Positions 3,201-41,954 of a stretch of DNA of 64,000 bases are shown here, in pieces. The DNA is taken from contig JAQGBZ010000033.1 in NCBI GenBank assembly GCA_034687125.1, positions 186,001 to 250,000 of the forward strand. Reading direction: 5' to 3'. The notes beneath the pieces are model-generated. The model was not told the DNA's origin and made no database searches. It saw only the letters and a program-made list of their open reading frames with translations. Both the position numbers and the translations under genes were made by a program. Positions within the stretch are counted from its first letter, which is position 1. Every line of letters begins with the position of its first letter. This DNA comes from Neelides folsomi (lineage: Eukaryota; Arthropoda; Collembola; Neelipleona; Neelidae).

Positions 3201-6200
3201 CGCATGCGGAGATAGACCAAATTCATGGGAATTGTTAAATTGGTTCCAACATGTAGTTCATTAATTTAGCTATAATGTCTAAAAAGGTGTTTTCACTGTT
3301 AATGAAATGACACTTTGACTTTGACTTATAAAACACAAGTATTCAATAGACAGAAATATACAAAAGTCATGTTGAAAGCATTTGTCAATTCATCCAAATG
3401 AGTTATATGAAAATGGACTCTAAATAATGAACCACGCCCGTTCTAATAAACTTTAAATCAAAGTTAGTACCGAATGGATATCGTTTAAAGTATATAAATT
3501 ATTGAATATCCGTTAAATTATTGATTACAAGGTTAAGGTTCAAGCTGAGGGGCTTTATAGAGATTTTAATTAAACATTGTATAAGTATGGTATAGACTTA
3601 TTGTTAGAATGATATTAGAGCATTCGGAAGTTTTTGTATTAGGTATTTAAATATTTACTCACCTTCGGTGTACTTAAATATTGCTCAATATTTGAACTTG
3701 AATTACAAAGTTTAAATTATGTCATGTTAAAATTCTTAATTAATAAACCCATTTTACTTTTAAACTTCTATGCAATAAATCTCATTGTCTAAAGTGTCAA
3801 ATCAAGAGATAAAATTAACTAACTAAAGTAGTGTCAGGATGATGTACCGGATAGATAGCTGAACGTGTAAGAACGAAAATATAATTTACGACTACTACAT
3901 AATAAATACTCTTTAGGTATATAGATATTATTTGTATTTAATTATAAAGTTCATGAGGTGAATAAATAGGAAACTGAGGCATAGTAGCGAAAGAGCAACT
4001 TAGAAACGGATGATCATACCAAAGTGTATTTCCTCATATTTGTGTCCTCAGGTTATCGATCGTAGACGGGTGAGTATAAACTTGAGTGGAGCGAATCCAC
4101 TTCCCCCACCATTATGTATTGAGCGAGAGAATCAGGCTTTTACATAAGGCTACTTTCCCTATACAACTACTTTGCACGAACCTTCGAGGGGACTTGATAA
4201 TTTCCTATCAAATCCAATAAATTACCTTTTGCACATTATGCACTATGGCTCCTAGGTGTATACAAAGCCCAATATTTCTATTCCTCAATGGTTTGTATAA
4301 ATGAAATGTGTAGTTTAAAAATAATTACAATTGCCGAATCGGCTCAAATCGGTCTCAAGAGAAAATGTATGAATCAATAAATATCCGCTTTGTACCAAAA
4401 GTCGTTGTTGAAAGTGGAGAAAATGGAGTCGTCTCTAATCCCCATCCTACTTCCCGAGTAGGACCAAGGAGCAATATGTAAATGAAGGTATTCAGGAGAG
4501 GAAATAAATTGAAGTAAATAGGGCTCTCTTCAATGTCCGCGTTCCAAGAGACAAATAATTGAAGACTAATCTCGTGTCTGTCAGGAGATCCTTATATACA
4601 GTGAGGAGGTGAGAGGCCCGCCTCACTACATATTAAAACAAGGGAGATGTGTACGAATTCCTATTGCAATTTTGGGGAAGTGCAAGCAGGAGGATGCAGA
4701 AATAGAACCCGAAGTCGGGCAGGGAGGGAATTGGGGGCTTCCACACCACCAGCGGCTCTTTTTATTCCTACCTGGGCTGATGGAGAGGGTCGAGAGACGA
4801 CCAGGTCACTCAGGGCTCAATTCCACCATTCCAAATTATTCCAGGAGGAAGTGGGGCCTGGAGAGGTTCGGGAGAACTGGAGAAAACTCTACGCCATTGA
4901 CACGAGTAGGGAGAGAGCGAGGCCAGGGAGTTGGATGGGAAATCGGGCGATCTCCTGGCTCTGCGCTCTCCGAAGCTTTCCCTCTCTTGCACCAGGTGTC
5001 TATTCTACCCGGGTATTACTCCCCACTTCCCCGGTTTCTCGTTTTCCCCTTTGGAGTGGAGTGGAGAGATGTGACGGTAAATTGTGGTGGCTCAAGAGGT
5101 GAGTTGAGACTGACTCCCCCACTCACCTTCCTGAAGGGATAAAGGTGAGAAATGAATCGAAAGAGCTCTGGCAAGATCAACCGACCCTCCAGTTTAATAA
5201 TGCAGCTGGAATGAAATAGAAATAGCAAACGGTTTCCCTTTATCTTACCAGATCAATGACTGGTCACCCCAGATAACTTTTTATCGAACCAAGCTTTTTG
5301 ATGCTGTAACAGGCTCCCACAATGAGCGAATTTTCGTATTTGTAAACAATTATTTATCTATTATGAAATATTTAGAATGGGCCCATTATTATAACATGAC
5401 TCTAATGTTATAATGTTAATAAAGTTTAATTTAGGATTCACATTTAAAATGTAAACTTGATGTTAGAGAATATTATACAATTAGTAATATTGTAATTATT
5501 AAAACTTTAGAGCAGCACTTAGCAAATATTGTATGTTACAGTTATGTTATTTGCTTACAGTATTTGAAATTCGATCCTTTGTACAATAATATATTTATTT
5601 TTATTAGTATAATTGAAATTTAAGTAACATGATTAACTAGTCATTCAGCATTATATTTCTAATTTACTTGTTGGTTTATAAAAGTACAAAACAGGCAAAT
5701 AGAGATAAAATAAGCCATTATACATCAATAAATATTATTGAATTATAAAATTACTGTCGCTTTATAAGTTACTGAAAATTATAATAACAACACAGCTAAA
5801 GTGTGTGCATTTTAGTAAGTAGACACTCGAATAATGAATAAAATAATAATTGATAGTTTTGAGAGTCGCAAATCGCATATTATTAAAAATATTTACATTT
5901 GCTTTTATGAGGCCTTTTATTGGTCGTAGTTTGAGTAGTTTTGTTAAATGGATATTCTATGAAATGAAGAAATAGAAATTAAACCACATAAAACATGACT
6001 CTTTACTTGCATGATTTTAACATTATGTTTATGCTTTACGATTTCATCGGTCTAGTAATGAATTATTAAGCGTTTCAATTGTATTTAATAAAATATGTAT
6101 TACCATTGCATTTTGAGGATTCAATATGGAAAAAGTCGAAAAAAAACGAACGAGGCTTATTTTTACTCGCAATAAAGTTCTAAAAGGAGTCTTGAGCAGA

Positions 6201-7100
6201 GCACTAGCACAACTTAAAAATAATAGAGTGAGGAGAGAGTGGGAATGAGGACTTCGGAGGAAATGACAATGGGAGTCGGAATCGTCTCTGGAAGCGATAA
6301 ACGAGGTGGAGGCAGAGTGGGACGTCGAAAGCCCCTTCTTCCCATCAACATCCTTCTCATGAGGATGAGAATCCACTGAGGTAAAATCTCTTCGTCCCGC
6401 CAGAACACTCTTCATTGTGGTTTCTTCATATCAATCATCAAATAACCTACTTTGTCAAACAAACTTCCCTGTCGCTCCTTTCTAATTTTATGGGAACTCG
6501 AGCTTTGACTCGTAATAATAGCTGTAATTGCCCATCTGAAACGATATAAGCTTACCACTGCTCATTTTACCCTTAAAATCACGACATTCAATTTCTCTTC
6601 TTTATGAATCATAATCAGAAACACAAAGTGGAAAAATTCATATATTTACTTTTTTAAGATTAAAATCATTAGCTCGTTCCTAATATTTTTACAAGATAAT
6701 ACTTCACGGGCCCATAAAGATGTCATTAGTCATTTTTTATAAACAAACTATGAGAAGAACCATGCATAGGAAAGTTGTGGAAATATAGGAGCCATAATTT
6801 CTTATAATACTTTTAATACCATTATAATACTTGCTTTACCGAAGGTGGCCCATTAGCAAAGCTATTGACTTTTGCCGACGCTTATTATACATATTTGTAA
6901 GACTATGTATTTATACTTCCACTATCATTTAGCTCGCCTTAACTTTAACGCCAATTTATAAATAGAGTAAATGAGTGAACACGTAACGTCGAAATTCCAT
7001 ACTTTAATTCTGTTTGCTCATTTGGAACACGGGAAGGTTACGTTGTTTGAAAGGGAGTAAGAAAAAATATTTTCGCATTTTCTACATATTGTTCTCATTT
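300..7100. other. Non-coding stretch upstream of the TTBK exon
   Basis: No conserved protein segment was recognised on either strand; the open frames are short, unconserved and mostly AT-rich. One block, about 4600-5180, is clearly richer in G+C and open in two overlapping plus-strand frames at once (177 and 151 codons), which points to compositional bias. It could be a promoter or 5' untranslated exon of the minus-strand kinase gene. A 123-codon minus-strand frame at 6044-6415 is also unrecognised. Confidence 0.6.
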
Positions 7101-30149: not shown

Positions 30150-31260
30150 ATGGGTGACAATAAAGAAGCCGATAAAGAAAAGCGTGAGAAATTGTTGAAA
30201 CTTAAATTAAAACTGAAAGCTAAGAAAGAGAAGGAAAAGAATCGTCCTAAGAGAGTTGCTGCTCTTGGTGCTCCTGCTGACGATGTTGAACTTTTGAAAA
30301 CCATGATTGCAAAACTGAAAAGAAAAAGGGAAATCGTCAGCCCCGAAAACGAAGTTGACAACGAGGACAAAAATATAGATATCGACATAAAGAATAAAGT
30401 GAAAGAAGAAGATGAAGCGGCGCTGATCAGAAAGCGGAAGAATAGGAACAAGAAGGCATTGGCTAAAATCATTGCTCGACGGCTCAGTCCACGTAAATGT
30501 AATAAAGATAAGATAAAGCTGAGGGAGGCAGCCAATGCGGCTGAACATACGGATCCAAAAGTAAAATATTTGTACATTATATATAGAAATAGATAAATGT
30601 TACATAATTTATACCTAAAAATGATAGAAATCACAATGATATTATTAATATAACATAACTTATAGTTAATACTAGATAATTTATAATTATTGTATTTTTG
30701 ATAAAGTAATTTATAATTGTCCTCTTTGACTTTTATAGGAAGAAATGGCCAGGATCCAAGAAAAGCTCATGAAACGAAAACTTATACAAACAAACGAATT
30801 GGGTCGAGATTTTTATAATTACAGGATGGACGACATCGTGTCAACAAAAGCAAAAGGTCAAACCTACTACGCTCAAGTTAAAGGGTTTTTTACGAATGAC
30901 TTCAGCAAAAAGTTCCTGAGGGTTCGATGGCTAATTCCAAAACGCGATTATTCCCCGATGTATTCAACTATCTCCTTAAAGAATTTCAATCGCTTGCATT
31001 TCCAAGAAGGTAATTAAAACTTATTGCTTCTCTTACAATAAAAATTTTGAGCAAATATTTTTTTACTGTATATAATTTACTACCAAATTCATTATAAAAT
31101 CTTTATCATATATATTAATATTTTAGGCCCTGACGAGCTCTTCACAATTGACATTGACTTGTTTAATTTCGTTATGAGACCTAATGAAGCACAAAATCCA
31201 CAAAAGGCTTCATCACTTATTTCAAACGCAATTGAAAAATACGAAGAGAAATTGGAATAA
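30150..31260 (+). CDS. GATAD1-like chromatin protein lacking the GATA zinc finger
   Basis: Exons 30150-30560, 30739-31009 and 31127-31260 join to 271 residues, about the length of human GATAD1 (269). The C-terminal half resembles GATAD1: YNYRMDDIVST, YYAQVKGFFTND and RVRWLIP correspond to its YYQIGDVVS, YYAQIRGFIQDQ and ALTWLIP, followed by a PDELFTIDIDLFNFVMRP segment like PEEDLPRKMEYLEFVCHAP. GATAD1 sits in an H3K4me3-associated Sin3/HDAC complex. The N-terminal half is different: a Lys/Glu-rich coiled-coil-like region (EKREKLLKLKLKLKAKKEKE) and basic stretches with no C-x2-C pairs, so the GATA-type finger of vertebrate GATAD1 is absent. This is a distant match made from memory; function in chromatin is inference. 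Confidence 0.55.
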
Positions 31261-31363
31261 TTATTGGAGACAAACCGAGGATAAAGATGTCAATAATTCC
31301 TAATATTTAACTCAATAGTCATCCTTTGTATCGATATTTATAATATATTTAATATTTGTTCAA

Positions 31364-34300
31364 TCAAAAAACAATTGTCGAAATATCATCGTCTGAATAA
31401 TCAGAATTGCTCTGATCGTATTCCTCCCCTGCATCCTCGCCTTCAAATCCTGCTGCTTCTCCAATGAAGGACGCGATTTCTTCTGCGAGTTCATCTTTGT
31501 GCATGTGTCGCTCAACATCCATTGATGCGAGTCGTTTTCTTACGCTCATCTTCCTATGAGAATCAAGGAAGGCTTCACCGAGTTCTTCATCTGTGTCCCT
31601 TATTTCTTCTATCTCCTCACGTGTCGGTTTGATATTGAGCTCATCGATTGCACGTGAAGTTGCGAATTGAAGTTCAACATTCTTTTTTGCTGATGCTTCA
31701 CTTTGTCCTCCCTCACCTTGAGCTTTCTTCAATAACTCACTTTCAACGAGGAGTTTAAGTTGGACGAGAACTGGATGAAGAGAAGAAAGTGCATTCAGTT
31801 CATCTTCGTTTCCAGGAATTTCATAAAGTCCGATGAGGTCATATATTTCCGATACCATGTCAAGTTCTTTTTCAATGTTATCCATCTAAATTAATTAAAA
31901 TCTCAATGATAATTTTTATATTATTTAAATTTTATTAATGAAATTAAAGTACTTTTGTTTTGTAATATTACACATTTAAAGTTTTTTAAGGAAATTTAAA
32001 AACCTCTTTTTCATGAATTTCTTCGAGAATTTCATGTCTTAGCTTTTTCTCATTATCCGTCTTTGGGTCGGATTTCACGATACTGAGAAATTCCATCATT
32101 TTTTCGTGGAGAACGGCTACACACTTTGCACCATAACTATTTGAATGTACAAATTTTTTATTTTAACTATACAGTTATTTTAGTCTATCTAATTATTAAT
32201 GTAAAATAAGTAATATGGTGTAGAGAAAATCCATTGTTGAATTGTTGAGGAATTAAATTGTGTTAAACATTAAGTATTAAAAATTAAAGTTTTCTCGTTT
32301 TATACCTCGGAAGTGCTTCGTTAATTGCTTCAATATATTTTGTTACACTTGGGTAAGCGTTCGCTCTCATGAGAGAATTTGTCACTTTAAAAATCCCGAC
32401 ACAGTTTTCATCCTCAACATTCTTTATAATCTCCATTTCACTGTGAAATCTCTCCAGTAGCATTGTAAATACACGAACGTCTATGAAAAACAATAAACAT
32501 TTTTAACTTAACCGCTATCTTAATTTTACGCTATAATTTATAATTTATTTTCCAATTACCCGTTTCTCGTTCAATGTCCTCAATTTTAATCTTTTCATTC
32601 TGAAGGCAGAAGTCTCTGATGTGGGAAAATGTATCAGCATAATGAGAACATGAATTGACAGCATAGTAAAATATCAAATCGACAACTTCTTTCACCTGAT
32701 GAGAATGTTGAAAATCAGCATATAGAAATTATCATTTATTTAAAGATCCATAACAGTTTTATAGTCAATCTTTGCCATTTTATAGAAAATAAAAGAAACT
32801 TACAATTGGCATATTTTTGTTTGTCGAAAGAAGGAACTCCATACTTGGCCCTTGTCCGCAACCTTTCTCCTCTAAATGTCCGTTTAATATTGGCCTGTAA
32901 TTAATATTATTTTATATCTAATCTCATCCATTTTTAATCCTCAGTTAATCAGAAATGTGACTTAAACAAAAGTTAGGAAATTTTATTAACTGAGTAAATG
33001 GATTGAATGCTTCATTTGGAAGCAAATTGGGATAAGTCATAATTGCCTTTTTCCAGGCTCCAAATAAATGTTTAATCTCATTTTGGAATAAAAGTGTGGA
33101 AGGATTAAATGTCATCGCTTCAATTGCATCCACATCCGGACTCCAACTTACTCCGATCTCAAACAATGGTTTAGTCGGATTGATCGTTTCATTCGTTCCT
33201 CCCTTTAATTTAATTTTATTAAATTTTATATCCGTGCTACTGCTTACAGTGAAGCCATACAACAATTAGTCAAATTAATAGCGAATATAAATTAATTCAT
33301 GTCAAGTTAGTTCTGTACATTGGTCAAGTTGTAATGTTTAAGAGAATCAAGCAAAGGCCCATGTTTTGGAGGAGGAACACTCTCATCCACTTCCACATTC
33401 AATTTAATCCGTTCGTCCAAGTCGCAGAGAAAAGAAATGATTGAATTGTTCAATAATGAATTATATGCTTGTTGAATGTGAAAATCAATCAAGTGAATGA
33501 AGCTATTCAAAAGAATTATTAAAACAAGTCTTATACTCAATTTATATGCTTAAGTTTTAGTTTGTTTCGAGATTTGGTAATTACTGGGTAAGCTTTGCAC
33601 ATAGTCGTTTTTTCCTTGTACATTGAGAAAAGCTAAGCCATTGACCAGGATAATCGTAAATGTGCGAAGGAAGAAATCTTGTTAGTTCAATGGGCTCTAA
33701 TAAAACAAAATATGACCGTGTATAAGGTCAAAGGATACAATAAATGAATATGATTAAAATGTTAAACTGCTTATGAAACTTGTAATTTACGTACGCTCTG
33801 ATGATTTTCCAGCGTACTTTCGTTCTTCTTTATATTCATCAGGAGAAAACCCGGATTCAATAAGACACGTTCGACAAGCTAGATTATAAATGATAAATTA
33901 ACCATTTTTTAATAAAGCAACGACATATTTTATCTCATAATCCCATAATTGATAATTGGAGATATATGTACTAATATGTAGTATAAGTATTTACCTGCAT
34001 ATGTCATATCCAAAGCCATAGCTTCGAATTGACGTAAGCGAACGAGGATGTCATCCAAACGATGCTCTTGCTGTACAGTGAAATCTTTCAAAGCGTAAGT
34101 CGCATTAGGTTTAACAGTCACAAATCGCATTGAAGATATCTAATAAACAATTGTTAAATGGTGTAACTTGTGAAAAGTATAATTTGTATCACAATGACCT
34201 TTTCGCACAACTTGAGAAGTTCCCCTAGCATTTTCCTCAGTGGACGTCGAGTAACGAAAAGAGTTTCTTCCAACTTTTCTTTAATCGCTTTCAGCTTCAC

Positions 34301-36217
34301 ATGTCTGACGTTGTAATGCCATTGGTAAAAGGCTTTCCACAATTTGTATTTTTTGAAAAAGTGAAGCTAAAAATTAGAGCGAAATGAAATCTAATGATTT
34401 ATGGTTCATTAAGATATAATATCGTTTATTTATCAAAAACCTTTCGGCTATTAAAATGGCAACCTTTCTCAGTCGGTCAAAAATGTGCATTTGTCTCTCA
34501 TAATCGTAAAGAGAAGTAAATTCGGCATAGCCTTTTGAAAACAATATTACTCCATATTTACTCAATGTCAAGTAAGTAGAAGAAGCAACATCTTTGAACT
34601 TTACAACCCTGGTTTAAATTGACTTTAAATCACTAATATTACACAATCATACATGTTTGTATGTAAGTAAATATTTTGTCTTAAATGCGTTTTGCGATAT
34701 GTTGGTGAAAATAAGAATAAGTTACTTGAGCGAATATGGATTGAAATCTGGATGATTGACAGGTCTAGCATAAGTGAGAATGATGTATTCATTAAAAGGA
34801 GCTTCCATGATCTTTCTTGAAAGGAGAATGAATTGGGCTTTGGGGAGGGCCACATTTTCTTTAATCCCCCATAACTTTGAAATGTTCACTTGTTTCCTCA
34901 CCAAGTCCCCCGGTGGAAGACATTCCGGATTTCCCTGGGTTCGATCCACGCATTTTTCAAACCTAGGAATCTTTCTCATATTTTTATACTTTTCTTTTAA
35001 TGAGGGTTTAATGACTAACTCTTCTCGTAAATCTGCAAGTTTAATAAATGAAGTTATTTGTATTTTGAAGGGGCATTGAATTGTACATATTATCCGTAGT
35101 ACTTACTTTATAAAATAATGTGGTTTTATGGTTTTAATAAGTTATAACTGACTTGAAAAAATAAATAGCATTACTTGAAATTTTATGTGTAATCGAAATA
35201 TCCGAACCAGTTCCGCTCGTGTCTCTTTCACCCCCAAGATCTTCATCTTCATTAAGCACTTCCTTAAAATACGTAAAAATGAAATATGTTAGCATACCTA
35301 ATTAATGTACTAAATATTCCTTAAAGATCTTTACTTCTTCGCCATCATCGTCAACTATCACAATGACATCTTTCAATTCCTCTTCTTCCATTTCAGACGA
35401 ATCAGGATTTTCATTTTTCTTCTCTCGAGCCTCCCGTGCAGCATCTTCAAGTTTCTTTTGGTCTTCTCGCTTTTGAAGTTCAGCTCTTTTTCGAGCCTTC
35501 GACGTTTCCGTGAATAACTTTACCAAAGGAGGTCTCAAAATTCTATTAAATTTTAATTATTAATATTATATGATGGAATTGCTTTTCAACTAGGATGAAA
35601 ATTTGATATGACGAATATCATTATTTAATTGAAATAAAAACAAACTCTTCATGATAAGTCTTCGGTCCATGATACAAAATCCGATTCTTGACAAAAGTCT
35701 TGGCAGCTATTTGTTTCCCTTTAATTGGACAAAGGTGGTGATGATGATGGGACATTTCGTTTACATTCAGATTCACCGGCATATCAGTGTCAAGGGTCAT
35801 CATGGCGCCTGCAGCAGCTCCGAGTAAAATTTTCTTTTCAAGATCTGCAAGATCAACATTCCCAGCCTCGACTTGCCTTCTATAATAAGACATTGATCTT
35901 GACAATCGTGGTTTTGGAGCTGTTGCCGCTTGAGCCACACTTCTATTCATAAGGGACGCTGCGGTATAAGGTTTTCCTTCCTCTTCATCAGTAAAATTGA
36001 CCGAAGATTCAGTTCCTGGACGATCTTGGTCGAAATCAACTTTTTTTTCTTGCCAATAATCTTCTTCGCCTCCTAAACCTTTGAAAATGGATGATTTGTC
36101 AAAGACTGAAATTCTCTTATGTGCCTTGTAGACTTCGTTCATGTATTTGTCAGGTCCAAACTTCTGGGTCATTTTAACGAGAATTCCACTTGGCAGTTCA
36201 TTAGTTGGTGGAGCCAT
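31364..36217 (-). CDS. Dynein heavy-chain tail protein without linker or motor
   Basis: Sixteen exons encode about 1,118 residues resembling the N-terminal tail of single-headed inner-arm axonemal dyneins (DNAH3/6/7/12 type): FNPYSLKVVKFKD, YLTLSKYGVILFS, YDYERQMHIFDRLRK, FFKKYKLWKAFYQWHYNVR, FNPFTQPILNGHLEEKGCGQGPSMEF, then IYDLIGLYEIPGNEDEL, which marks the stretch just ahead of the linker. Exons: 35646-36217, 35335-35542, 35175-35262, 34726-35032, 34464-34608, 34199-34366, 33995-34139, 33795-33878, 33585-33696, 33319-33535, 32991 to about 33242, 32804-32894, 32560-32695, 32306-32480, 32004-32136 and 31364-31885. The last exon ends in an acidic tail (EEYDQSNSDYSDDDISTIVF, then stop). No linker, AAA ring or microtubule-binding stalk follows; the next genes lie on both strands immediately below. 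One junction (33319 to 33242) does not keep phase in my model. The N-terminal exon has a natural run of five His. Confidence 0.8.
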
Positions 36218-36599: not shown

Positions 36600-38393
36600 T
36601 TAGCTTGAACGCAAAGGGTTTTCGGGATGAATCTCCAAACTGTAAATGAATTACATACATTATAATTATTCAGTATAGATTGTCAAGTAATGACTAATGA
36701 GTAACCCTTAAAGTGATATACATAAAATGATACGTAAACTAACCGATAAAGTAAAATCAGTAAAAGTTACCCATTGAAATATTCTGTGAAAATAAATGTT
36801 CTTCCATCTTCTCCAAGATCAAGGGCTTTAATTTCTTTCATTTCTTCTTGACTTAAAACGAAGTCATGTATCTGAAACATTTGAAACATTTAAATTGCTT
36901 TCGATGTTTGGATTGTAAATATTCACGTAAAGGATTTGAATCTCATACATTATAATTGGAAATTATGTTTTTGGTATTGGAGCTCTTAGGAATCACAATG
37001 ATTCCACAGGTCGTAAGGAAGGAAAGCATCACTTGAGCACTTGTTTTCTTATGCCTCTCACAAATCTTCATTATAATTTCATTGGAAAACAAATTCGTGA
37101 TCCCTTTGGATGGACTTTAACAAGATAGACCAATTTATACCATGTGGTGTAATACATAAAGATATGCGGTATAATGTTAATACTTTTTCTAATTAGTATT
37201 TATAATGTAGCGGGGTTGTAAAATAAAAATTAAGTATTGTATAATATTAAACTTAAGTAAGTTATTTGAGTAAAGCCTACACAAATTGTTGTTTTCTATT
37301 CGGAGAGCCGAGTGGGGAATAAGCAGCAACAGCAATTTGATTTTTAAAGCAAAAGTTCCTCAATGGTTTTTGTTGAAATAAAACGTGAATTTCAACCTGT
37401 TAATAAAAACAAAATTCTTGGATTCTATTCATTAAACATTCTGCCCAACTTGATTAACTGCTGGTTGAATTTCGGCAACATCGAGAATTTTGATAATTTG
37501 CGATATATTGAAGTTCGATATACCAATTGATTTTGCTTTTCCCAATTTCACAACTTTCTCCATACCTGGAAAGAAGCACAATTTAACTCAATCCGCTTCT
37601 AACTAAGTTTAAATGTTTATTAATTTATTATGATATTTCAAGAGTGACTTTATAATGAGAATTGTGGCACTTTTCCAAATTAATTGAAGATTTGTCGAAA
37701 AATCAAATAAAAGTTTCCCATTCTTGTCTTTAGGGAAATAATCATCATCAGATGTGTGTTGAAAGCCAACTGGAAAATGAATGAGGTAAAGATCCACAAA
37801 ATCAAGCTGGAGATTTGAAAGTGACAAAGTTAAAAAATGCTCAACTTTGTCTTCATGATTTCCTATACTTGGAAGCTAAAAAACCATTTATTATTAATCC
37901 TTACAATAAAGTACTTTCAGAGCTTTCACAGTTGACCAAATATATTAAAATATAAACCTACTTTAGTTGTAATGAACAAATCATCTCTTTGAACCATTTG
38001 AGAATCGATGCATTTTTTAAGAGCTTTTCCAAGTTCTATTTCATTCCCGTACAAAAGAGCAGAGTCAAAATGTCTATAGCCCACTCGAACGGCTTCAAAT
38101 ATAACATTTTCCATTTCATCCTTTGTAATCTAAATGATAAAAATGCTATAATTAAACTATGTATACTCTGTAAAGTGTAAGTTACCAATAAATAAGTTAT
38201 AAGTTTACAATGTTTATTCTCGGGCACACTCGAGTTAAATAAGAAAATAACCATTTACTGATAAAGTTGAATGTAAAGTTGGATAATGCCAAGTTAGTGT
38301 GAACTTTTGTATAATTAATTTATTAATTACCGATCCAGTTCCTAAACCCATTATGGGTATCGTCTCTTCATTGAATAACTTTAAGCTCTTCAT
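36600..38393 (-). CDS. Aldo-keto reductase, eight exons
   Basis: NADPH-dependent carbonyl reductase of the AKR1-like group, cytosolic TIM barrel. Exons 38331-38393, 37962-38129, 37671-37875, 37450-37565, 37281-37396, 36949-37114, 36771-36871 and 36600-36639 join to 324 residues, the usual length. The catalytic tetrad is visible: Asp and Tyr in GYRHFDSALLYGNE, Lys in LFITTK and His in LYLIHFPVGF. Further signatures are IPIMGLGTG at the N-terminus, KAKSIGISNFN, QPAVNQVEIH, AYSPLGSP and the cofactor-phosphate motif IIVIPKSSN. The substrate cannot be told from sequence; the subfamily is left open. The gene lies in tandem behind the dynein-tail gene (383 bp between its stop and the dynein start) and is divergent from the ACE gene. 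Confidence 0.92.
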
Positions 38394-38977: not shown

Positions 38978-39220
38978 CTACGTTCGGTTAAAATAAAGAT
39001 TCCAAAACTCCATTGAAGGGGATTTAAATTCAATTGCAGAAGTTATTCGACTCTCGTGGTAAAGTGGATCACTTAGGATCTGAATAAAGGCTTTTCCATT
39101 AGATTGATGAAATTGCGCATGGAATGAATTCAATTTACACTCAACACTTTGAAGGGATACTTGAACAGCTCGGGAACGGCTTGAGTTAGTTTTCAAATTT
39201 TCAACAAGAGCCATGTCCAT
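38978..39220 (-). CDS. Possible short protein, antisense and head to head with ACE
   Basis: Open frame of 80 codons from ATG 39220 to TAG, with even codon content and no matching family. Its start lies inside the first codons of the ACE gene, so the two start codons overlap on opposite strands. No splice-linked partner exon was found. It may be chance. No function suggested. Confidence 0.22.
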   Translation of the reverse strand: MDMALVENLKTNSSRSRAVQVSLQSVECKLNSFHAQFHQSNGKAFIQILSDPLYHESRITSAIEFKSPSMEFWNLYFNRT

Positions 39221-41954
39221 TCTTGAAAATTTATTAATTTTATTGCTAATCTCGACTAGTTATGTTAAAGCTGAGAAATCGACTTTAAAAGAAGAACTCG
39301 ACGAGTACAACTCTCAGCTTTTGAAGTTTGATCATGAGAAAGCTCTCATTGCTTGGAACATGAGCCTTTACCCTGATGAAAATCTAATGGGTTTACTATT
39401 TAATAAATCTAATCTACTAATATTCCATATTAATTACACTATAATACAAATTACATACTATTGATTCAATCTATCTGATTACAGATTAATTACTACTGCT
39501 TGTATTTATCAATTTAATCCCAAGATTTCTTTTTAGCTGCAAATGAAGAAATCACAATCAAAAAAAACCTTTGGAACAACAATTGGTGTAAGAAAATGAT
39601 CAAGAAAGCATTTGCAAATTTTGATGAAATGAGACAAGTTTATCTTGTTTGTCGTGGCCCAAGATTCACTTCTTATCAATTAAGGTAGATTATGGATCCA
39701 AATGATTAACTTTAATAATCATTTCGTAATTATTTATTTTAAAGAAAATAATATATATTAACAACGGTAATAAACGTCTTTGTCGGAATCTCCTCTGCAG
39801 AATCTTTTATACGTATCTATTAAGCCCAATTAAATAAGCAATACTTTTAGCAATTTACTCGCTGCTCTTACAAAAATGTCAACAACTTACACTTCAACCC
39901 GAGTTTGTATTCGTGGTCATTGCATGAAAATGGAACCAGAGTTGAATCGGTTTATGGAGGAAGTGCGAGACGAAAGACTGTTAAGAGAATCTTGGATGAA
40001 ATGGCATAAAATTGTGGGAACTGCAGTGAGGCCAAATTACATTTATCTAATCAAGATGCTCAATTCGGGTGCAAGAGGAGCGGGTGAGATTTAAACTTTA
40101 AGGTCAACATTTAAAAGGTGACGTTGGTTTGCTCAGTGAAATGTAATGGAAATAATTGGTAGGATATGAAAACGCGGGTCTTTTGTGGAGAGATGAAACG
40201 GAGATTCCCAATTTGAAGGCTCTTGCACTTCGACTCCATTCAGAAGTTGATTACCTTTACAAACTCCTTCATTCTTATGTCAGGTTTCGAATTTCTCAAT
40301 TTTACGGAATCAACATAACTGATGGGATTCCTGCTCACCTTCTCGGTATCCTTTTCTTCTTTAATTGATTATTTTTTTGAAAGCATTGAATTAACTAATG
40401 ATGACGTTTCAGGGAACATGTGGTCACAAAAATGGGATGGACTATTTTCTATCATTTATCCTGAAGAATCCTTTGCTGCCCATGATGGTCTTGTGAAAGA
40501 ACATCTTCCACCAAATGCAACTGTAATTGACATGGTCAAATCTGCTGAACAATTTTTCATTTCAATGGGTAATTCTTAATTTACATTATTAGCAATGTGA
40601 CATGTGTTCAATAAGTATAAATATTTATTAGAGTTAATTAAAAATGCATGTACCTACCTAATTTGAAAGAAAGCACGAAAGTGAAATTTCGATTTCACAT
40701 TAGAAAGTGAGAGAAAGTACATTAAACATTTAAATAAACATTTAAAGTATATTAATTAATGATATTATTAATGATGATCTTTAGGTTTTCCCAAACTCCC
40801 TGAACATTTTTATGAGAACTCTCACTTTACTGAGCAAAACGACAATCAAAATTGTCACGGAACGTCTGCAAATATGTTTGGCCAAGATGACTATCGAGTT
40901 ATTATGTGCAGTGAAATGAAGGATGAGGATTTCATAACGATTCATCATGAACTTGGACATATTTATTATTTCATGGCATATAAAAATCTTCCCACTTTGT
41001 ATCAGGTTATTATATAAAAATATTGATATTTAGAAAATATGCAAAACTTTAAATTATTCCAATTTCATATCTTTTGTTGAATATTAGGACGGCGCAAATT
41101 CGGCTTTTCATGAGTAAGCAACCATTTTGATTTGATCTTTTATTACTATGCAACAATACATTGATTATCATTATATTATTCTTACAATAGTTTTAAAAAC
41201 AATAAAAGTTAAAGTTTATTTAAATAAACAAGGTCGGTGGGAGATTCAATTACTTATTCGCTTCAAAAGAGAAACCTCAAGAGTTTGATGAAAATTGGTC
41301 TTGCGAAATTGCCACAAATTGCTTTTGGGCTTGTTGTTGATCTTTGGCGTTGGACGATCTTTGAAGAAGAAAATTCTGCCGATGAATGGAACGACATTTG
41401 GTGGGAGTTGAATTACAAGTATTTAGGAGTCATCCCACCAAGGTCAATAAGTCCAACATTCATTACTCGTACATTCAAAGGGCATATTCAGTAAATTCTG
41501 TAAATCAAAGTTGTATTTTTTAAGGGGTTACGCAACGGACGGGTTTGATGCAGCTGGGAAGTTTCACATAATCGACAACATGCCATACATTCGTTACTTT
41601 TTGGCAAGCTTTCTCCAGATGCAGTTTTATGAAGCAATGTGCAAAGGAGAATTTTGCGATTTGCGATCAAATAAAAGGGCTGGGGATAAATTATGGTTAA
41701 AAACTCAATAACCATGAATTTAATTGATCGCATATAAATTGTTCCTTATTAATGAAATATTTATGTTATATATTATAATTAGGAAAATGATGGAAAAGGG
41801 ATCGTCGCAGCATTGGTCAATAACACTTAAAGAATTTGTCGGAACTTCTGAAATTAATTCTAAATCTCTTTTACGCTTCTTTGAACCTTTAAAAGTTTGG
41901 CTCGAAGAACAAGTGATTGAACATGATTTGAAAATTGGATGGGGATACAGGTGA
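39213..41954 (+). CDS. Secreted angiotensin-converting-enzyme-like peptidase (M2), ten exons
   Basis: Zinc dipeptidyl carboxypeptidase of family M2, like insect Ance. Exons 39213-39390, 39537-39684, 39851-40083, 40163-40345, 40413-40568, 40785-41005, 41088-41113, 41233-41442, 41525-41695 and 41783-41954 join to 565 residues, a single-domain form. Residues 1-20 (MSILENLLILLLISTSYVKA) are a signal peptide; there is no C-terminal membrane segment, so it should be secreted. Zinc ligands are in IHHELGH and, 20-odd residues on, the Glu of FHE (completed across the 41113/41233 junction). Substrate-site residues remain: CHGTSANMF, KFHIIDNMPYIRYF with the catalytic-domain Lys, His, Arg and Tyr. Between FHE and DLWRW there are about 18 fewer residues than in human ACE, removing the SSEGGSDEHDI loop. 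Insect relatives process peptide hormones and act in reproduction. Confidence 0.95.

Follow-up and report, generated by a model that had tools for sequence, protein, structure and literature searches.

The tails of axonemal dynein heavy chains dock the arms and the heads make force, and the separability of the two has been tested in a few algal mutants. The heavy chain of inner-arm dynein g binds actin and a light chain (centrin or p28). DNAH6 is the heavy chain of inner-arm dynein g (IDAg) and DNAH1 that of dynein d (IDAd), and both are described as neighbours near radial spoke 3 (RS3) in the accessible text of PMC10266980, which also records a contact between DRC3 and the DNAH6 linker. The g/d dyneins form one of the dynein pairs at the radial-spoke bases (PMC6249098, accessible text), and CCDC96/CCDC113 forms a bridge from the dynein g tail to RS3 and the nexin-dynein regulatory complex, or N-DRC (PMC7987202, accessible text). 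In Chlamydomonas, arms still assemble with beta and gamma chains that are without motors, according to the part of PMC12338079 that was available. A search of open-licence papers turned up no description of an axonemal heavy chain that is motorless in nature.

The gene described here was found in a window comprising the whole 64-kb stretch of DNA that was analysed (C33:186001-250000). It occupies 31364..36217 on the minus strand of the window (C33:217364-222217) and comprises 16 exons encoding 1093 aa, with the ATG at 36217 and the TGA ending at 31364, exactly the bounds given in an earlier note on this DNA. The gene model was put together manually, using reading frames and splice sites. Exon 1 (35646..36217), which carries the ATG, is followed by exon 2 (35335..35542), exon 3 (35175..35262) and exon 4 (34726..35032), within which homology to DNAH6, located with phmmer, starts near 34790. 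Exons 5 (34464..34608), 6 (34199..34366), 7 (33995..34139), 8 (33795..33878), 9 (33585..33696), 10 (33319..33502), 11 (32991..33202), 12 (32804..32894), 13 (32560..32695), 14 (32306..32480) and 15 (32004..32136) continue this homology, which spans 31742..34790 with introns counted in (residues 371-968). Exon 16 (31364..31885) encodes its final 49 residues, a lineage-specific acidic C-terminus of coding-like composition (31367..31741, residues 969-1093) and the TGA. An ATTAAA lies 10 bases past the stop (31348..31353, minus strand) and, as a consensus match only, is a possible poly(A) signal.

Each of the 15 introns, 59-169 bp in length, has GT-AG ends and a compatible phase, and the 16 joined exons contain no internal stop. 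A custom gene predictor, which was simple and had been trained on this same hand model, gave 19 exons when the intron penalty was low and 16 exons with 1075 codons, compared with 1094 by hand, when it was higher; the two models resemble each other overall but differ at the edges, so some exon edges are uncertain. A processed or decayed pseudogene was rejected on the intact frame, the 16 exons and the 15 of 15 GT-AG introns, and the simple pseudogene that the earlier note had named as a way for its proposal to fail was not borne out. The locus is an open, intact gene, predicted to encode a motorless DNAH6-type heavy chain.

The surrounding genes are close. A convergent GATAD1-like gene, named by eye and with no Pfam match, occupies 30150..31260 on the plus strand, its stop lying 103 bp from the dynein stop, and a radical-SAM/UPF0004 neighbour was consistent with CDKAL1, although its TRAM match was under the cut-off (Pfam). 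An aldo/keto reductase gene (36600-38393, minus strand, Pfam 3.3e-42) shares the strand of the dynein gene and lies immediately upstream of it, and an angiotensin-converting-enzyme-like M2 peptidase gene with an intact HELGH motif is found at 39213-41950 on the plus strand (Pfam 1.9e-97).

The predicted protein was compared with the chains in PDB using phmmer. Three DNAH6 chains headed the list (1.1e-56, 1.1e-53 and 1e-53), a similarity well past anything chance would give, and the first non-DNAH6 chain was a heavy chain from a protist, labelled 'putative' (6.7e-29), from which protist and algal heavy chains continued downward; none of the chains up to E = 10 bore another DNAH number. Residues from about 370 to 968 align with DNAH6 200-787, and identity to one DNAH6 tail was 25.6 % over 613 aligned positions. 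On this search, a tail of the DNAH1/3/7/12 type was rejected. The class-specific N-terminal tail of DNAH6, or inner-arm dynein g, is present in the window gene, which is accordingly classed by similarity as DNAH6 type; the earlier note's description of a single-headed inner-arm dynein tail standing on its own was thereby upheld, and the tail given a class. Residues 1-370 gave no convincing match in PDB (phmmer) or Pfam, and Pfam named no family anywhere in the protein, its single sub-threshold match being to Ribosomal_S2 (E 0.28). All 16 genome matches to the tail at E ≤ 1 were the gene itself, and a second full-length copy or paralogue was therefore rejected.

The DNAH6 homology ends at DNAH6 residue 787. 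The linker of DNAH6, its start judged from where other chains align, begins later, near 836-867, so the protein ends in the neck before the linker. None of the 27 listed genome matches to the linker profile (DHC_N2) fell at C33:217364-222217, although two were located on C33 at 5772-6749. Beyond the homology, the C-terminal 125 residues (969-1093) carry a net charge of -18. GC content is 43 % in this stretch and 22 % in the introns, and the frame in use gives the highest score (0.61 per codon, versus 0.27 and -0.10 off-frame); for both reasons the acidic end looks coding by composition rather than like intron read-through. Homology up to the pre-linker segment followed by an acidic tail and a stop, the architecture initially proposed from the letters of the sequence, was thus recovered, and the profile check proposed with it gave neither a DHC_N2 nor an AAA_6 match at the gene. 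A donor-like site is present at the end of the DNAH6 homology (score 3.25; true donors 2.2-6.18), one of 11 sites in the last exon that score above 1.

Two further heavy-chain genes in the same genome resemble the window gene in that the tail is present and the AAA motor absent. The first (C33:1-6782), on the same contig about 210 kb from the window gene, begins at the contig start, with its N-terminus missing, and consists of an 18-exon model ending at the linker end, with an AATAAA 39 bases downstream of its stop. Its best PDB match (1144 bits) was a 4730-aa chain labelled CFAP57, a label that cannot fit such a length, followed by DNAH5 (1083 bits); by these matches it is a motorless chain of the outer-arm gamma (DNAH5/8) type, with predicted tail and linker. 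The second (C335:9000-17667) matched DNAH1 at 240, 233 and 224 bits, the next chain scoring 154, and is by the same reasoning a motorless DNAH1-type chain with predicted tail and linker. A convergent open frame starts about 100 bp past its stop. Its tail contains His-rich stretches. Both genes finish near the linker/AAA1 border, motor domains being absent in the searches, and both retain the linker, whereas the window gene stops before it. An AATAAA or ATTAAA closely follows the stop at all three loci. The genome thus appears to hold three axonemal heavy chains without motors, the window gene among them, and that all three are cut near domain borders would fit selection.

Motor domains were searched for throughout the assembly (75.1 Mb, 840 contigs), the genome-wide domain counts being lower bounds. 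No match on C33 or C335 was found among at least 28 to the AAA1 motor (AAA_6), at least 15 to the microtubule-binding stalk (MT), at least 19 to AAA5 (AAA_9) and at least 13 to the C-terminal domain (Dynein_C); all 75 listed matches to these profiles (of at least 75) fall outside the two contigs. A local search with three motor proteins of the same genome found nothing at E ≤ 1 in the window, C33:1-30000 or C335:1-40000, and its positive control gave 87 matches on two control contigs. A motor further downstream on the same contig was rejected on all of these searches. The earlier note had held that no motor coding follows the tail stop, on the ground that neighbouring genes fill the space; the searches support that conclusion, but the neighbours alone are no proof, as genes can nest in introns. 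Eight of the eight contigs with AAA_6 also have DHC_N2, which leaves no motor without a tail, and AAA_9 and MT were found on seven contigs, all within those eight. Two heavy-chain loci, on C674 and C117, are cut off by the contig end, and orphan Dynein_C pieces sit at contig ends on C159 and C224, the rest of these genes lying elsewhere. The C159 and C224 pieces are nearly identical. They may be allelic copies, or a single 3' end that was assembled more than once, perhaps that of C117 or C674.

Other heavy chains were assigned with phmmer. DNAH7 (C399) looks complete, DNAH2 (C66) is intact as far as modelled and a second DNAH5/8 chain (C500) has its motor. Among the loci placed by these comparisons, none was assigned to DNAH10, the partner of DNAH2 in I1/f, or to DNAH12. 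C674 was assigned to DNAH3, which it matched at 302.9 bits, the top chain (362.6 bits) having an ill-fitting label. By eye, we take C117 to be DNAH9/11/17, C44 to be DYNC2H1 and C122 to be DYNC1H1. The remaining chain (C453:27343-45651) is divergent, full-length and fast-evolving, and was missed by the Dynein_C profile. In the linker/AAA1 region it is nearest to DNAH6 (212.9 bits, compared with 196.3 for the next non-DNAH6 chain), but against the DNAH6 tail segment, which the window gene does match, its best E was a non-significant 0.80; it is possibly DNAH14-like or a substitute dynein g. CFAP91, a spoke-base marker, was not found in the genome in a search run without a positive control. The genome looks like that of a panarthropod, its COX1 being 68 % identical to Drosophila COX1 and at least 39 matches to the cuticle domain Chitin_bind_4 being present. 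A tardigrade origin was not supported: a CAHS query, likewise run without a positive control, gave no match, and CAHS is said to occur in every eutardigrade (PMC13389832, accessible text).

On balance we lean towards the reading that a DNAH6 chain minus its motor has been retained as a non-motile axonemal subunit or scaffold. Such a chain would have lost the linker, AAA ring, stalk and C-domain and kept its docking tail, to which the new acidic end is attached. The tail would dock at its doublet-microtubule site near RS3 and the N-DRC and maintain local structure without force production. Since the g tail takes part in bridging and motorless Chlamydomonas chains assemble arms, the tail alone could fill the g site and tie RS3 to the N-DRC; we infer expression of the gene, docking of its product and the structural role. 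Against this reading, C453 might supply a motor at the g site, the tail alone would lose the DRC3-linker contact, CFAP91 was not found in the search without a positive control, and the assembly is not complete, as its contig ends show (loci on C674 and C117 cut off, orphan Dynein_C on C159 and C224).

A wider proposal is made tentatively, as a possibility that we would not call probable: that in this lineage DNAH6 (g) and DNAH1 (d), the two RS3 dyneins, were decapitated along with one outer-arm gamma chain of the DNAH5/8 type, the tails persisting as a permanent scaffold. Motors would have been removed singly, with the 96-nm layout left standing. If true, dynein arms without heads would exist in nature and axoneme reduction would have taken a new route, and an axoneme with tails only at RS3 and a headless outer-arm chain would provide a natural experiment on dynein position versus motor during beating.

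The main rival of the scaffold reading, although we judge it unlikely, is that the genes are relics: relaxed selection, for instance in a lineage whose sperm flagella are reduced or seldom used, would have cost them their motors and left tails that are still to decay. The earlier note had likewise suggested a retained remnant, should the lineage have reduced its cilia or sperm flagella. The truncation of three heavy chains in one genome is in favour of a relic, the fast evolution of C453 suggests that constraint is relaxed for at least one dynein, and the idea would gain weight if males are rare. Against a relic stand a tail open over 1093 codons in 16 exons and an acidic end that is coding-like. 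The lack of motor remnants and the closeness of the neighbours make the deletion look old, yet the frame is intact. In addition, DNAH7 looks complete and DNAH2 is intact as far as modelled, and conservation is higher in the motorless DNAH5/8 tail than in the paralogue that has a motor: an N-terminal stretch of the former scored 484.8 bits against human DNAH5 (723 aa), versus 313.5 bits (707 aa) for the comparable stretch of C500, a gap of which model errors in C500 may explain part. This difference suggests that constraint acts on the motorless copy.

A regulatory or competitor subunit, vying with full-length arms for light chains or docks, or an extra-axonemal role in which the acidic end binds something new, appears distinctly improbable. 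The acidic C-terminus and the 370-residue N-terminus without detectable homologues could bind partners, but direct support is nil and no full-length DNAH6 is left as a rival, except possibly C453. We are a little more doubtful still of a split dynein, in which the motor half would be a separate or trans-spliced protein that was missed or unassembled. The assembly is in 840 contigs with some heavy chains cut at contig ends, and the domain counts are minima, which would leave room for such a protein; against it, all eight AAA_6 contigs have their own linker, AAA_9 and MT occur on seven contigs that are all among those eight, and three motors would need to be missing simultaneously. An assembly or annotation artefact, through a wrongly joined contig or a 3' extension that was overlooked, is scarcely credible: it can draw on the donor-like site at the homology end (3.25, one of 11 in the last exon) and on gene models without RNA backing, but the same architecture recurs at three loci, each with AATAAA or ATTAAA soon after the stop, and no motor sequence is present in the 64-kb window or on C33.

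The scaffold reading may be set against three known systems. In Drosophila, the DNAH6 orthologue Dhc16F is used in sperm and chordotonal neurons and its knockdown left 10 of 10 males infertile, as given in the accessible text of PMC6367277, where Dhc16F is listed as an ordinary heavy chain; it is likened to the window gene by description only. The same text gives no Drosophila orthologue of DNAH1. Lineages thus differ at the g/d pair. With DNAH6 itself, the window gene shares the tail homology (DNAH6 200-787), the best match of all solved chains, but it is without linker, AAA ring, stalk and C-domain and adds the acidic end and an unaligned N-terminus of about 370 residues. The Chlamydomonas mutants oda4-s7 (beta) and oda2-t (gamma) have the N-terminal part of the chain only and their arms assemble, as described in the available portions of PMC12338079, PMC11496786 and PMC6249098. 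The window gene has the feature of these mutants, an intact tail frame ending before the AAA ring; oda4-s7 and oda2-t, however, are laboratory mutants of outer-arm chains, whereas the window gene is a natural inner-arm locus with a new, coding-like end.
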